Shown piece by piece: positions 25,990 through 30,775 of a stretch of 38,135 bases of DNA (within the stretch, counting starts at the first letter, position 1; the number at the start of each line of letters is the position of its first letter). The notes under the pieces were generated by a model. It worked only from the letters and a program-made list of their open reading frames with translations. It had not been told where the DNA came from and did not search any database. Source of the DNA: Candidatus Hinthialibacter antarcticus (lineage in GTDB: Bacteria; Hinthialibacterota; Hinthialibacteria; Hinthialibacterales; Hinthialibacteraceae); contig JAVCCE010000036.1 in NCBI GenBank assembly GCA_030765645.1, forward strand, positions 1-38,135, given 5' to 3'. The translations under genes were made by a program, and so were the position numbers.

Positions 25990-26535
25990 ATGGTGGAATA
26001 CGGCATTGTCCTGCTCGTCTTTATTGCGCTGGTGAATGGCGCCGCCTATCTGGGGGCGCCGGAATGGGTTTCGCTCGTTCTGTTACTTCTGCTCGCAGCG
26101 CCGACGCTGTACGGCGCCTGGTTTGGCGCACCCTATATTCCCTCCGCCAACCCCGCTGTTGAACGGGCGCTCGGTCTCGCTGAATTGAAGCCGGGGGACG
26201 TTTTTATTGATCTGGGTTGCGGCGATGGACGATCTCTTCGCGCCGCCAAAGCGCGCGGCGCTCAAGCGATTGGATATGAGATTTCGCTTTTCATGTATTG
26301 CATTGCGAAACGATTGAGAGGGTGCGAGGTGCGGCTGGGCAACTTCTGGAGCGCGGACCTTTCGGAGGCGGACGTGGTGTATTGCTACCTGACCCCGAAA
26401 GCGATGGAGCGTATTGAACGTGAAATCTGGCCGAAACTGAAGCCCGGATGCCGACTGGTTTGCAATACCTTTAACATGCCGACCCTCGCGCCGGATGAGA
26501 CGCGAGGGCCGATGTATCTCTATCGAAAGTTCTAG
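25990..26535 (+). CDS. Membrane-anchored class I SAM-dependent methyltransferase
   Basis: This ~181-residue protein begins with two hydrophobic segments (residues about 4-20 and 27-43), then a compact methyltransferase domain. VFIDLGCGDGRSLRAAKARG (about 69-88) is motif I, the AdoMet-binding loop. IGYEIS carries the acidic residue that contacts the ribose, and ADVVYCYLTPKAMERIEREIW is motif IV-like. It resembles small 'class I SAM methyltransferase' proteins with N-terminal membrane hairpins. The target may be a lipid, quinone or membrane protein. It starts 74 bp from the divergent GT4 gene and its TAG overlaps the convergent Spy-like gene stop (CTAG). A TTG at 25984 is an alternative start. 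Confidence 0.85.
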   Translation: MVEYGIVLLVFIALVNGAAYLGAPEWVSLVLLLLLAAPTLYGAWFGAPYIPSANPAVERALGLAELKPGDVFIDLGCGDGRSLRAAKARGAQAIGYEISLFMYCIAKRLRGCEVRLGNFWSADLSEADVVYCYLTPKAMERIEREIWPKLKPGCRLVCNTFNMPTLAPDETRGPMYLYRKF

Positions 26536-27254
26536 TTCTCTTTCGGCAGGTCTTCTTTCAACATTTCATCATCAAAAGGCATCGCTCCCGGCGGCGGGCC
26601 TGGAGGCGGCCCCCAGCCGCGAAATCGGCGTCCGCCTTTTTTATCGTTTAAAATATGTTGAGGGGCCCGTTCGACCAACATTTCGATGAAGCGGTTTTTG
26701 TGTTCGATCTTCTTTTCAAGAAATAATTTGAGCCGGTCGAGCTTTTCTTGCAATAAGTGAATTTCCATTTGCTGCCGTTTGATATCGAGCGCAAACATTT
26801 CATCAAACAATGGGCGCAGGATGGCTGCGACTTCTTCATCCGGCTCATTGGCCTTGTCTGGCGGAAGTTCTTTGACTGCTGTGCGAATTTTTAATTCCTG
26901 ACGGCGTATGGATTCATGCAACTCAGCCAATTCAGGGTTTTCACGTCGCATTTCGTCCATGCGTCGCATCATTTCATCTTGTCCCCGGCCCCGCCAGAAC
27001 GGAGGCGGCCCGCCAGGTCTGCCAGGCCCGTCGCCCATTCGCTCGCCTCGGGGCGGGCGGTTTGGGTCATCATTGTCGCGACCGCGTCCCCACCCGCGTC
27101 CCCAACCACCGCGCGGTTGTTGGTCTGTTGCGGCGGCGATTTGCTCCGGCGCAGGTTTGGGGGCGTCGTTGGCCCGCGAGATTATGATAGCGGTTGTTGA
27201 AATGAGCAGCGCAATGATAACGGCTGCATATAGCAATATCGTTCGCGTGTTCAT
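26532..27254 (-). CDS. Periplasmic Spy/CnrX-like heptad protein with Gly/Arg/Pro-rich regions
   Basis: This 240-residue protein has an N-terminal membrane or signal helix (about 7-27). A low-complexity region (about 45-90) is rich in Gly, Arg, Pro and Trp. A long helical region (about 93-205) follows, with MRRMDEMRRENPELAELHESIRRQELKIRTAV and IKRQQMEIHLLQEKLDRLKLFLEKKIEHKNRFIEML. The tail is Gly/Pro-rich. Helical periplasmic proteins of this type resemble Spy/CpxP and the metal sensor CnrX. Its start overlaps the stop of the anti-sigma-like gene (ATGA), and the sigma gene is first in the operon, so it is probably the periplasmic sensor or modulator of the sigma pathway. Metal ligands are not obvious (few His, no clustered Cys). 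The disordered Arg/Gly segment is unusual. Confidence 0.68.
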   Translation of the reverse strand: MNTRTILLYAAVIIALLISTTAIIISRANDAPKPAPEQIAAATDQQPRGGWGRGWGRGRDNDDPNRPPRGERMGDGPGRPGGPPPFWRGRGQDEMMRRMDEMRRENPELAELHESIRRQELKIRTAVKELPPDKANEPDEEVAAILRPLFDEMFALDIKRQQMEIHLLQEKLDRLKLFLEKKIEHKNRFIEMLVERAPQHILNDKKGGRRFRGWGPPPGPPPGAMPFDDEMLKEDLPKEN

Positions 27255-27763
27255 GAGGTTAATCCTGAAAAAGCGGATTCAAAGTCTGTTTCAAAATCGC
27301 TGAAGAGTTCAGCCATTTCTTCATCAAGGGTTAGAAGTTCCTCTTCGATGGTTTCGGTTTCCCAGGTGGTTTCCGTCGTCCATGAGAGGTCGGCTTTGCG
27401 TTGGAACTCAGCCGAGCCGCCCCACATGACCACCAAGAAGATGGCCGCCCACGCCCAGCGCCAGCCGTTGAAACTCCAGTTGTTCGCTGCGTCCAATGTC
27501 GGCATCGGCGTGACGGTCCGGTTGGTGCGCGCCGCTAGTAAGACGTTATCGCGAATGCTGAGGCGCGGTTCGCGTTGCGGCAGGGCTTTGCCCGCTGCCA
27601 TCAGGGCGTTTAAGTCCTGCCATTCCAATTGCAGACGCTCGGACTGGCTGCATTGGTCAAGAAACGCCCGTTTTTGCGGCGCCTCATCCGGCAGGTCGAG
27701 CATAAGGAGCATGTCGTCCGCCGATGGCTCGCTGATGGGATGAAACAACGGGTGTACTTTCAT
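27251..27763 (-). CDS. Probable membrane anti-sigma factor
   Basis: This 170-residue protein has a cytoplasmic N-terminal part (about 1-105) with helices such as LDLPDEAPQKRAFLDQCSQSERLQLEWQDLNALMAAG. A single membrane helix follows at about 112-130 (WRWAWAAIFLVVMWGG). The short C-terminal outer part is strikingly acidic and rich in Thr, Glu and Asp. This single-pass topology directly after an ECF sigma gene is that of an anti-sigma factor. The zinc motif HxxxCxxC of ZAS-type anti-sigmas is absent, so it is not of that class. GGAGG seven bases before ATG 27763 fixes the start. The ATG lies 19 nt after the sigma stop, and its stop overlaps the Spy-like gene. The acidic tail may bind the Arg-rich periplasmic partner. 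Confidence 0.72.
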   Translation of the reverse strand: MKVHPLFHPISEPSADDMLLMLDLPDEAPQKRAFLDQCSQSERLQLEWQDLNALMAAGKALPQREPRLSIRDNVLLAARTNRTVTPMPTLDAANNWSFNGWRWAWAAIFLVVMWGGSAEFQRKADLSWTTETTWETETIEEELLTLDEEMAELFSDFETDFESAFSGLTS

Positions 27764-27782
27764 GGTTGCGTCCTCCAACCGC

Positions 27783-28403
27783 TTATGCGGTTTCTTCCGC
27801 CAATTGATTATCGGCGCAAAGTTGTTTTTGTAAAAATTTTACCGCCTGGCTCATTCTCGATAACACGGTGCCGAGCGGGGCCTCTTGTATTTCCGCGATT
27901 TCTTTAAATGGAACTTCTTCGATTGAACGCAACAGGTACACTTCCCGAATCAACGGCGGCAGCAGCTCGACGGCTTGTTCGAGCCGCGCCAGGTCTTCTT
28001 GTTCGACCGCCTGGTCGAGCGGCGTCGGGTCGGCGCCGGGAATGCGTTCAATCAAAGCGACATGTTCTTCGTCTTCGTTCCAATCTCTGGCTTCGACAAA
28101 ATGCTTGTCTTTTCTGAACCGGTCGAGGCAATGGTTGTGGGCGATCCGGTACAGCCAGGCGGAAAACTGGCCTCGATCTTCGTATTTATCTTTCTGCGCC
28201 AGCAACTTAAACCAGACCTCTTGCAGCGCATCTTCGGCCTCGTGCTGTCGCCGCAGCATCCGTAAGAGGAAGTTAAACAAAGGTTTATGAAAAGTTTCCA
28301 TCACTGTTTCAAAGGCGGCGATATCGCCTTTGTCGCGATATTGGATGAATAACTTCCCGGGGTCGATGGCAGTGTCTTTTATCATGGCCTTTGTACTTAT
28401 CAT
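27783..28403 (-). CDS. ECF-type RNA polymerase sigma-70 factor
   Basis: This ~206-residue protein has the two conserved ECF domains. Sigma region 2 spans FHKPLFNFLLRMLRRQHEAEDALQEVWFKLL to WLYRIAHNHCLDRFRK; the DALQEVW and AHN..DRFR motifs bind core polymerase and the -10 element. Region 4 spans LPPLIREVYLLRSIEEVPFKEIAEIQEAPLGTVLSRMSQAVKFLQ, a helix-turn-helix for the -35 element. No extra C-terminal domain is present. The start is ambiguous: ATG at 28403 (used) or ATG at 28385, neither with a strong ribosome binding site. It is the first gene of a three-gene operon with a membrane anti-sigma-like and a Spy-like protein, and divergent from the VWA protein gene. Likely role: response to envelope stress or metals, and self-regulation. 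Confidence 0.9.
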   Translation of the reverse strand: MISTKAMIKDTAIDPGKLFIQYRDKGDIAAFETVMETFHKPLFNFLLRMLRRQHEAEDALQEVWFKLLAQKDKYEDRGQFSAWLYRIAHNHCLDRFRKDKHFVEARDWNEDEEHVALIERIPGADPTPLDQAVEQEDLARLEQAVELLPPLIREVYLLRSIEEVPFKEIAEIQEAPLGTVLSRMSQAVKFLQKQLCADNQLAEETA

Positions 28404-28424
28404 AACGCAATTCAAGTGGTTTTA

Positions 28425-28453
28425 TTGACTGGAAGCCAGAAAAAAGTCATAAG
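28425..28453 (+). promoter_or_regulatory. Probable sigma-70 promoter for the VWA protein gene
   Basis: TTGACT (28425-28430), a 17-bp spacer and CATAAG (28448-28453) lie in the divergent spacer between the sigma operon and the VWA gene, about 70 bases before its start. The boxes match 5/6 and 4/6 positions of consensus. Its -35 side is only about 22 bases from the sigma gene start. Confidence 0.45.
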
Positions 28454-28522: not shown

Positions 28523-30775
28523 TTGGTCAAGCGACGAATATCGAGGAAGTTTGATTTGTTAGGATTTGCCGCTGCTGTCCTATTGATTTGTTTGTACTTG
28601 TACTCGGTGCGTTTTCTTGATGCGCCGCTGGGGGCGGGTCTGCGCGCCCTTTTGACGGTTAGCCGCCTGGTCGTGCTGATTTTCATGCTTTATCTATTGA
28701 CCTTGCCTCAAACCCATGAACAAATTGAACGCGCCGTTTCGCCGACGCTGTATGTTTTGTTAGATGATTCACAAAGCATGGCGGCGCCGCTTGACCCCGT
28801 TTCTGACGATTCGCCCTCACGCTGGCAAACCATGTTGCAAAGTCTTAACGAAGACGGCCTGCTGCAAAATTGGGAGGCCAAGGGGTTTCCGCTTCAGTTT
28901 GCTTTATTGAGCGAGGCGTCGAACCTCTCGCTCTCCCGTTCGGCCTGGAAGCCGGGGTTGCCTGAAAATGTTGGGCCGACGCTTGATTCAACCGACTTGG
29001 CGGGCGCGATCCAGTCATTTAACCAATCAACGCTGCAACAACAAAATGCCTATCTCTTATTGTTCACCGATGGCCGTTGGAACCAGGGCGGGGCGCCAGA
29101 CGCCGCCGTCAATCAACTAAGTATGATTCAGTCTGGAATGCAAACCGCGCCGGACCGCCGCGTCTTTTCGTTCGGCATCGGCCCGGTGATTTCGCTGTTT
29201 GACATTTCGCTCGACCGCATCGAAGCGCCTGCACGATTGCGGGCGGGAGAAACCAGCGCATTGAATGCGTCTGTGTCGGTTCATGGCGAACTGCCCGAAG
29301 CCCCCTTGCAACTGCGCGTTCGCATTGTTGACGATCAAGCCAACGAAATCAGCCTAATTGAAGAGCAAATTAATTGGTCGGAGGGTGCGGCGTCGCAGCA
29401 AGTTTTGCTGGCGTTGCCGGAACTCGAAGCAGGTGAATATACCCTACAGGCCGAAGTGGTTCCAACCAGCATTGAGCGAATCGTTGACAACAACCGCAAA
29501 GAACTCCCGCTGAAAGTGCGCCGCTCGCAAGACCGTTTGTTGCTGCTGACTTCGGCGCCGGACGCGGATTTCAAATTTCTGAAACGAGCGCTTGAAGACA
29601 ATCAGACCATTGATCTTCATGCGTATATGCGCCATGAGTCGCGCCTGGTTGCGCTTGGCGACCGGGGGTGGGTGCAGTCGCAGCGTGGCGAAGATGTCGA
29701 AGAGCCTGCGCAAACGATTGACGAAATCATGGACTCCGAGCAGCCCTGGTCTGCGGTGGTGCTGCATAATTTTGTATGGAGCAGCGAACTGGCCCCGTTT
29801 GCGGAATGGCTGAGCGGTTACATTGAAAATGGCGGCGGGGCGTTGTTTGTTCCCGGCGCGGGCAATGCTCAACCGGCGCCGCAGGCGCTTGAGGACATGC
29901 TGCCTGCGCCGTTAGCGATTGCGTACAATGTGGTCCCCGCGCAAGCGTTGATCGAAGCGGCGTCTGTGCAGTCGGAATCACTGCGGGCGGCGTGGCAAAA
30001 CCTGCAAGGCGGCGCGCTGCCGCCAGTGGGGCCGTTGTATCGCCCCAGCCAACAATTGTTGACCGCTTCGCCGTTGCTGTTGGGCGCGGCGGTGGGCAAC
30101 GCGCAACAACCGTTGATGGAGCGCCACCGTTATGGATTGGGTTCGATTGTCGTCTCTCGCGCGGCGGGGTTATGGAAACTCGGATTATTCACTGAACAAG
30201 ATTGGCTGACGCCGTTTTGGACTTCAGCGCTCAATGAGAGCAACCCGCAGTTGCGCGGCGAGTTGGGTGAACTGATGACGGACCGCTTTGCTTATAATTT
30301 ATACGACGCCGTCCAGGTGCAATACGCCGCGCCGGAAGCAGTATCGAGCGTCACGGCGAACGGGCAATTTGTTGTGATTCAAACGCCTTCAAAACGCGAA
30401 TCGCTTTGGCTGGCGCCGACTTCGGGGCTGTCGAGCGGCTTTGAAGGCCGCTATACGGCGGTGGAGGCGGGCGATTATGTCGTCTCGGAACCGGCCGCTG
30501 GCGTCACCACCACATTTCGCGTCGAAGCGGGCGCGGTTGAAACCGCCAACCTGACCCAAAATGTTGAGGGGCTGCGCGCGTTGGCGGCGGCGGGCGGCGG
30601 CGAATATGCAAACCAGACCGCATGGAAGCAATTGTCCAATAAAATTCCCAATTTGACCCGGCGGGTTCGCGAAGATCGCTCGTTCTTCTTGGGCGAAAAA
30701 TGGTGGGCGGCGGCGCTGTTGATCGCATTTCTCGGCTTCGAGTGGTTTTTGCGCTGGCGTCAGGGAATGCCGTAG
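28523..30775 (+). CDS. Large membrane VWA-domain protein
   Basis: This 750-residue protein has two N-terminal membrane helices (about 12-30 and 42-62), then a von Willebrand A domain. LYVLLDDSQSMA contains the metal-ion-dependent DxSxS (D81, S83, S85), and LLLFTDGRWNQGG lies near 178-190. After about residue 230 comes an Ig-like region (LRAGETSALNASVSVHGE). A Rossmann-like region with VVLHNFVWSSELAPFAEWLSGYIENGGGALFVPG near 410-445 resembles class I glutamine amidotransferase-like domains. The last helix (about 724-742) anchors the C-terminus. This layout is common in Bat/MoxR-associated proteins, but no MoxR ATPase lies here. The start is a TTG with AAGGA just upstream; no ATG fits. It is divergent from the ECF sigma operon and may be one of its targets. 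Confidence 0.82.
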   Translation: MVKRRISRKFDLLGFAAAVLLICLYLYSVRFLDAPLGAGLRALLTVSRLVVLIFMLYLLTLPQTHEQIERAVSPTLYVLLDDSQSMAAPLDPVSDDSPSRWQTMLQSLNEDGLLQNWEAKGFPLQFALLSEASNLSLSRSAWKPGLPENVGPTLDSTDLAGAIQSFNQSTLQQQNAYLLLFTDGRWNQGGAPDAAVNQLSMIQSGMQTAPDRRVFSFGIGPVISLFDISLDRIEAPARLRAGETSALNASVSVHGELPEAPLQLRVRIVDDQANEISLIEEQINWSEGAASQQVLLALPELEAGEYTLQAEVVPTSIERIVDNNRKELPLKVRRSQDRLLLLTSAPDADFKFLKRALEDNQTIDLHAYMRHESRLVALGDRGWVQSQRGEDVEEPAQTIDEIMDSEQPWSAVVLHNFVWSSELAPFAEWLSGYIENGGGALFVPGAGNAQPAPQALEDMLPAPLAIAYNVVPAQALIEAASVQSESLRAAWQNLQGGALPPVGPLYRPSQQLLTASPLLLGAAVGNAQQPLMERHRYGLGSIVVSRAAGLWKLGLFTEQDWLTPFWTSALNESNPQLRGELGELMTDRFAYNLYDAVQVQYAAPEAVSSVTANGQFVVIQTPSKRESLWLAPTSGLSSGFEGRYTAVEAGDYVVSEPAAGVTTTFRVEAGAVETANLTQNVEGLRALAAAGGGEYANQTAWKQLSNKIPNLTRRVREDRSFFLGEKWWAAALLIAFLGFEWFLRWRQGMP

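Follow-up and report, generated by a model that had tools for sequence, protein, structure and literature searches.

A conserved gene trio of an ECF sigma factor, a class I anti-sigma factor and a coiled-coil protein in Candidatus Hinthialibacter antarcticus as a proposed envelope-stress circuit

The question raised by this locus is what kind of signalling circuit is encoded by three consecutive genes in the window, i.e., the whole stretch of 38,135 nucleotides of Candidatus Hinthialibacter antarcticus DNA that was analysed. The original prediction had described a sigma factor, an anti-sigma factor and a Spy-like sensor in an arrangement recalling CnrYXH-type metal sensing, with the sensor docking electrostatically onto the anti-sigma tail. 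Our analysis supports a real set of sigma, anti-sigma and helical-protein genes, based on the Pfam sigma domains, the class I homology and the conservation of the trio, and favours, with a probability of about 0.6, an autoregulated circuit for envelope stress, where the coiled-coil protein would gate the anti-sigma factor via the outer helix of the latter. The open reading frames were confirmed as originally described, on the minus strand, with the exception of the sigma start, for which ATG 28403 had been given. The features of the sigma and anti-sigma genes are as follows:

27783-28385, minus strand: ECF sigma factor gene, 200 aa, start ATG 28385 (Pfam, relationship to SigW, orthologues)
27861-27863, minus strand: codon for Leu175, the counterpart of SigW K170, within the recognition helix of region 4 (GTV-L-SRM) (SigW alignment)
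27251-27763, minus strand: gene of the putative single-pass class I anti-sigma factor, 170 aa, start ATG 27763 (NF052375, position adjoining the sigma gene, helix prediction, zf-HC2 in distant members)
27632-27655, minus strand: decayed zinc motif QCSQSERL, anti-sigma residues 37-44 (alignment to the relatives G003 and G008)
27401-27457, minus strand: anti-sigma transmembrane span, residues about 103-121 (hydropathy; predicted helix 100-125)
27254-27388, minus strand: acidic outer tail of the anti-sigma factor, residues 126-170, net charge -14, predicted helix 136-166 (helix prediction, charge)

The sigma factor contains regions 2 and 4 as the only sigma domains found by Pfam (Sigma70_r2, E=3e-18; Sigma70_r4_2, E=2e-10), which places it among the ECF (group IV) factors. 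Its closest solved relative is SigW (E=2e-22), and it shares 42-61% identity with its orthologues. ATG 28385 is more likely to be the start than ATG 28403, because the latter falls within the -10 element of a conserved promoter and the starts of the orthologues correspond to 28385.

The anti-sigma factor matches NCBIfam NF052375 with E=6e-5, as do six of its seven orthologues (best 1e-7), in all cases under the curated cut-off, while Pfam contains no family for either the anti-sigma or the helical protein of the window. The anti-sigma factors of distant trios match zf-HC2. A structural model of moderate confidence consists of four cytoplasmic helices, a transmembrane helix and the outer helix 136-166; its best fold match is RsiW, which is non-significant (E=3.1) and therefore a mere hint. 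With good support from homology that scores below the curated thresholds, the protein is probably a class I anti-sigma factor (RseA/RsiW, ZAS type) with a helical cytoplasmic domain of about 100 aa, and these sub-threshold scores together with the position of the gene point to anti-sigma activity. That the protein lacks the zinc motif, as originally noted, was borne out: at the motif site the window has QCSQSERL as opposed to HCSLCERC in G003 and HLAICPEC in G008. The motif Hx3Cx2C is kept in 25 of 32 trio anti-sigmas, which, together with the zf-HC2 matches of distant members, identifies the window copy as a loss within a zinc-type family. Such a loss is ordinary, since zinc and non-zinc members intermingle inside class I groups; the zinc motif is missing from about 44% of the class I domains (PMC7406223). 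The described single-pass topology with an acidic tail also holds, with one hydrophobic span being recognisable. For the placement of the tail outside the cytoplasm, the inner flank of the span is more positive in 28 of 33 anti-sigmas; the flank charges of the window protein itself are ambiguous (+1 vs +2), so that the orientation of its tail is deduced from its orthologues and from the presence of the cytoplasmic domain.

The third gene of the trio encodes the helical partner, for which the following features were assigned:

26532-27254, minus strand: gene of a 240-aa periplasmic coiled-coil protein with a signal anchor, which is proposed to act as sensor or gate (AF2 hairpin, anti-sigma neighbour, no Pfam family)
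26970-27122, minus strand: Arg/Gly/Pro-rich disordered stretch, residues 45-95, net charge +3 (pLDDT mostly <55, charge)
26640-26987, minus strand: conserved core of the protein, residues 90-205, forming a helical hairpin in the model (mostly pLDDT 89-96, alignments)

The start of this gene is joined to the anti-sigma stop by the ATGA overlap that had been pointed out at the outset, and ATGA or similar overlaps occur in the window, in G005 and at the loci L149 and L156. The protein carries an N-terminal hydrophobic segment, and the AF2 model shows a hairpin of residues 90-129 and 140-205 (mostly pLDDT 89-96) with disordered arms. Distant members have in common an FDLR-like turn, a conserved Arg and a C-terminal ...W. 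Comparison with the PDB by sequence and by fold gave no significant match. The Spy-like label did not hold, as the LTxxQ family of Spy and CpxP is unmatched in seven family members and six distant ones. The topology, the outer helix and the hairpin of the two proteins are predicted.

The expected conservation of the trio was found in 9/9 genomes of the window's family and order, the class being represented by about 14 sampled genomes. With this conservation and a tail predicted to lie outside, neither of the two outcomes named at the outset as refuting the original prediction was obtained. A first scan of the genome contigs with the window sensor yielded no relatives; with a profile of the helical core, relatives were detected in 31 of the 386 genomes sampled, including 21 from other classes, and in 20 of the 82 genomes of one other phylum. 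Beyond the class, at least 13 families contain complete homologous trios. Of 43 homologous loci, 37 have a co-directional ECF gene upstream in the 1.5-kb flank, and the loci without one are mostly at contig ends. The helical-protein gene nearly always adjoins the anti-sigma gene, including in very distant genomes. Among seven weaker core matches found later, outside the profile building, four have the trio, whereas G364 is without a sigma gene, G149 is doubtful and G283 lies at a contig end. In the 7.4-Mb single-contig genome G286, a 339-aa relative with two helical-core matches (L052, G286:C1) sits behind a 549-aa open reading frame and a divergent ECF sigma gene, possibly an expanded form of the module.

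The search for an ECF promoter motif upstream of the operon, proposed as a check of the original prediction, gave a positive result with a -35 box containing AAT:

28402-28428, minus strand: promoter-like element TCAATAAA-N12-GCGTTAT, with the -35-like part at 28421-28428 and the -10-like CGTTAT at 28402-28407 (close and distant loci)

The pattern TCAATAAA-N12/13-(G)CGTTA or a near match is present in 7/7 distinct close loci, 37-64 nt upstream of the sigma start. In the distant trios, AATA-N13-17-CGT[AT] was found in 24 of 29 of the 250-nt upstream stretches, compared to 1.1 expected from dinucleotide shuffles, with the consensus ACAATAAA-N13-CGT(T/A) and equal spacing in 21 of these 24; no recognisable motif was seen in the remaining five of the 29, and a later independent set of trios had it in two of four cases. 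AAC and CGT are the hallmark boxes of ECF promoters (PMC8103513). The canonical CGT of the -10 box occurs at a fixed spacing in both close and distant loci, CGT itself being part of the search pattern, while the canonical AAC of the -35 box is replaced by AAT in the consensus, 16 nt upstream of CGT. In the papers searched, CAATAA does not occur together with ECF and a promoter motif. The idea that the motif serves ECF genes of the window's genome in general was rejected, since its strict form stands before none of the 20 other ECF genes and its loose form is present in two, far upstream.

In SigW and sigmaE, K170 and R171, respectively, contact the G opposite the -35 C, G'-31 (PMC6713349). The residue aligned with SigW K170 is Leu in all 30 motif-bearing trio sigmas. 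At the same position, 18 other ECFs of the window's genome have Lys or Arg in 11 cases and Leu in one, and among the trios lacking the motif G264 has Lys, G286 has His and two have Leu. The trio sigmas group in the ECF tree (7 changes vs 15.1 in shuffles), with 31 of 34 within one group of SH-aLRT 96 that also contains four other sigmas; therefore, the motif and Leu counts are not independent and common ancestry is partly the reason for them. The AAT box and the Leu covary, and one may have brought about the other. Likewise, the promoter is conserved, and it would be used by the trio sigma. Leu also occupies the -35-reading position in another ECF of the window's genome (L207, G000:C76), which clusters close to the trio sigmas; it is without the upstream motif, and no helical partner gene was recognised for it in that genome.

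With the form TCAATA-N14-16-CGTTAT, 32 matches were obtained in six family genomes as opposed to 10 for the reversed control. The intergenic matches stand before secreted or envelope genes, including a DUF4405 membrane protein gene. Many further matches lie within genes or on the wrong strand, which makes the regulon list tentative, and a regulon of such genes under the trio sigma is suggestive only. In the window's genome, the motif precedes a MauG-type di-haem cytochrome c peroxidase (L098, G000:C4:41570-41597) and a secreted intradiol-dioxygenase-like protein (L116, G000:C25:11662-11688), both possible regulon members. Orthologous secreted O-methyltransferases of two other genera (L065, G001:C74; L099, G002:C54), one of which carries an EF-hand extension, have the motif 50-70 nt upstream; before the G005 orthologue it was sought and not found. 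Two secreted proteins rich in Arg, Gly and Pro (L103, G004:C14; L111, G002:C64), each with a coiled coil at the C terminus and one with RGRGPREDAP repeats, also have the motif upstream, and both are reminiscent of the Arg/Gly/Pro arm of the sensor.

On the other side of the promoter lies a divergent neighbour, whose membership in the circuit is not implied by its place:

28523-30775, plus strand: gene of a membrane protein of about 750 aa that contains a DxSxS motif of the vWA type (conserved neighbour of the trio)

In the family and order genomes, this gene is kept beside the trio wherever the contig extends far enough, and its product has no Pfam match at E<=0.001. The possibility that the trio sigma also controls it was rejected, as no motif stands before it in six genomes. 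In the window and in G005 it is followed by a pyrE-like gene.

The mechanism we propose begins with the class I anti-sigma factor, which, judging by homology, would keep the ECF sigma factor at the membrane via its cytoplasmic four-helix domain, zinc-free in this lineage. Its conserved acidic outer helix would serve as the input end, which the translationally coupled, signal-anchored coiled-coil protein may bind or shield, in a role likened to that of RseB on RseA or CnrX on CnrY. An envelope signal would alter this hold, and the sigma factor would be freed by a conformational change or by regulated proteolysis. The free sigma factor would then read ACAATAAA-N13-CGT(T/A) before its own operon, leading to more of all three proteins. 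That the third protein is the gate and not the output is suggested by its fixed place beside the anti-sigma gene and by the translational coupling.

If it were instead an output, the helical protein would be a sigma-induced periplasmic chaperone or scavenger with a Spy/CpxP-like role, and the anti-sigma factor itself would be the sensor. Spy and CpxP are helical periplasmic proteins induced by stress, the operon appears to be autoregulated as judged from the promoter motif, and elsewhere in the family the motif also stands before genes of secreted proteins, several being Arg/Gly/Pro-rich. However, even in very distant genomes the gene directly adjoins, and often overlaps, that of the anti-sigma factor with hardly an exception, and the short outer helix is the sole conserved outer feature of the anti-sigma factor. 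This constant adjacency and the conserved short helix suggest a dedicated partner, and we consider the output role less likely than that of a gate.

Electrostatic docking of the Arg-rich sensor segment onto the acidic tail, as originally proposed, is improbable. The acidic tail is universal in the 32 trios counted (mean -10.8, range -19 to -1), a count that left out three loci with doubtful frames or gene choice, two of them with tails that read as positive, and an Arg-rich stretch is present in the window and in some relatives. The Arg/Gly/Pro-rich segment of the earlier description does exist at residues 45-95, but its net charge is merely +3 and it is absent or unlike in the close relatives G003 and G005. 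The net charge of the sensors varies from -15 to +17 over the 32 trios, that of the window sensor after its signal segment is 0, and tail and sensor charges are uncorrelated (Spearman rho -0.01). Given this lack of correlation, the neutral window sensor and the unconserved segment, charge complementarity is not a conserved principle and was rejected; what is conserved is an acidic outer helix beside a coiled-coil hairpin.

The likeness to CnrYXH of Cupriavidus metallidurans holds in outline for the three roles of sigma, anti-sigma and helical periplasmic sensor, yet metal sensing with a diverged CnrX is very improbable, as the genes are ordered anti-sigma, sensor, sigma there and sigma, anti-sigma, sensor here, CnrY wraps its sigma with two helices (PMC4598750) and belongs to another structural class than the class I anti-sigma of the trio, the metal ligands and Metal_resist fold of CnrX (PMC4598750, PMC7689651) are unmatched in the trio sensor (Metal_resist PF13801 matches one of seven family members, merely with E=0.63, and, in line with the initial remark on missing ligands, no conserved His or Cys was seen in the core alignment), and no metal-efflux gene was found among the neighbours examined.

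The gated circuit that we favour resembles the RpoE-RseA-RseB system of E. coli sigmaE in its order of sigma factor, single-pass class I anti-sigma factor and periplasmic partner, and in the autoregulation of the ECF factor proposed for the trio. It differs in that the outer domain of RseA is longer, RseB is not a coiled-coil hairpin, and the -35 box there is AAC instead of AAT. SigW-RsiW of Bacillus subtilis provides the nearest solved sigma factor and, short of significance, the best fold match for the anti-sigma factor, and RsiW has a zinc-type class I domain as in the trio family. RsiW retains the zinc motif, unlike the window anti-sigma, and to our knowledge has no coiled-coil partner gene; SigW reads AAC with K170, whereas the trio sigma would read AAT with Leu. 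In Azospirillum brasilense, an operon of rpoE8, a hypothetical protein and a 'periplasmic heavy metal sensor' was reported merely as upregulated on RpoE6 overexpression (PMC12826043). By annotation, this operon has the order and the apparent roles of the trio, with its sensor annotated as a heavy metal sensor.

On the basis of sequence comparison, the as yet unnamed family of sensors, its distribution and the combination of Leu with an AAT -35 box appear to be new; the ECF group may already be numbered. With the same reservation, we tentatively suggest, at somewhat less than even odds, that the trio sigmas represent an undescribed multi-phylum ECF group in which a change from Lys/Arg to Leu accompanies a change from AAC to AAT, and in which the sigma factor is tied to an unnamed coiled-coil family that would gate a class I anti-sigma factor via a short acidic helix. 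An uncertain gene trio would become a defined signalling module of wide occurrence, whose input, the outer helix and its coiled-coil partner, and output code can both be tested. The joint change of a sigma residue and a promoter base over many lineages would offer a natural test of -35 recognition by ECF factors, and with the promoter string regulons could be searched for in uncultured bacteria by sequence alone.
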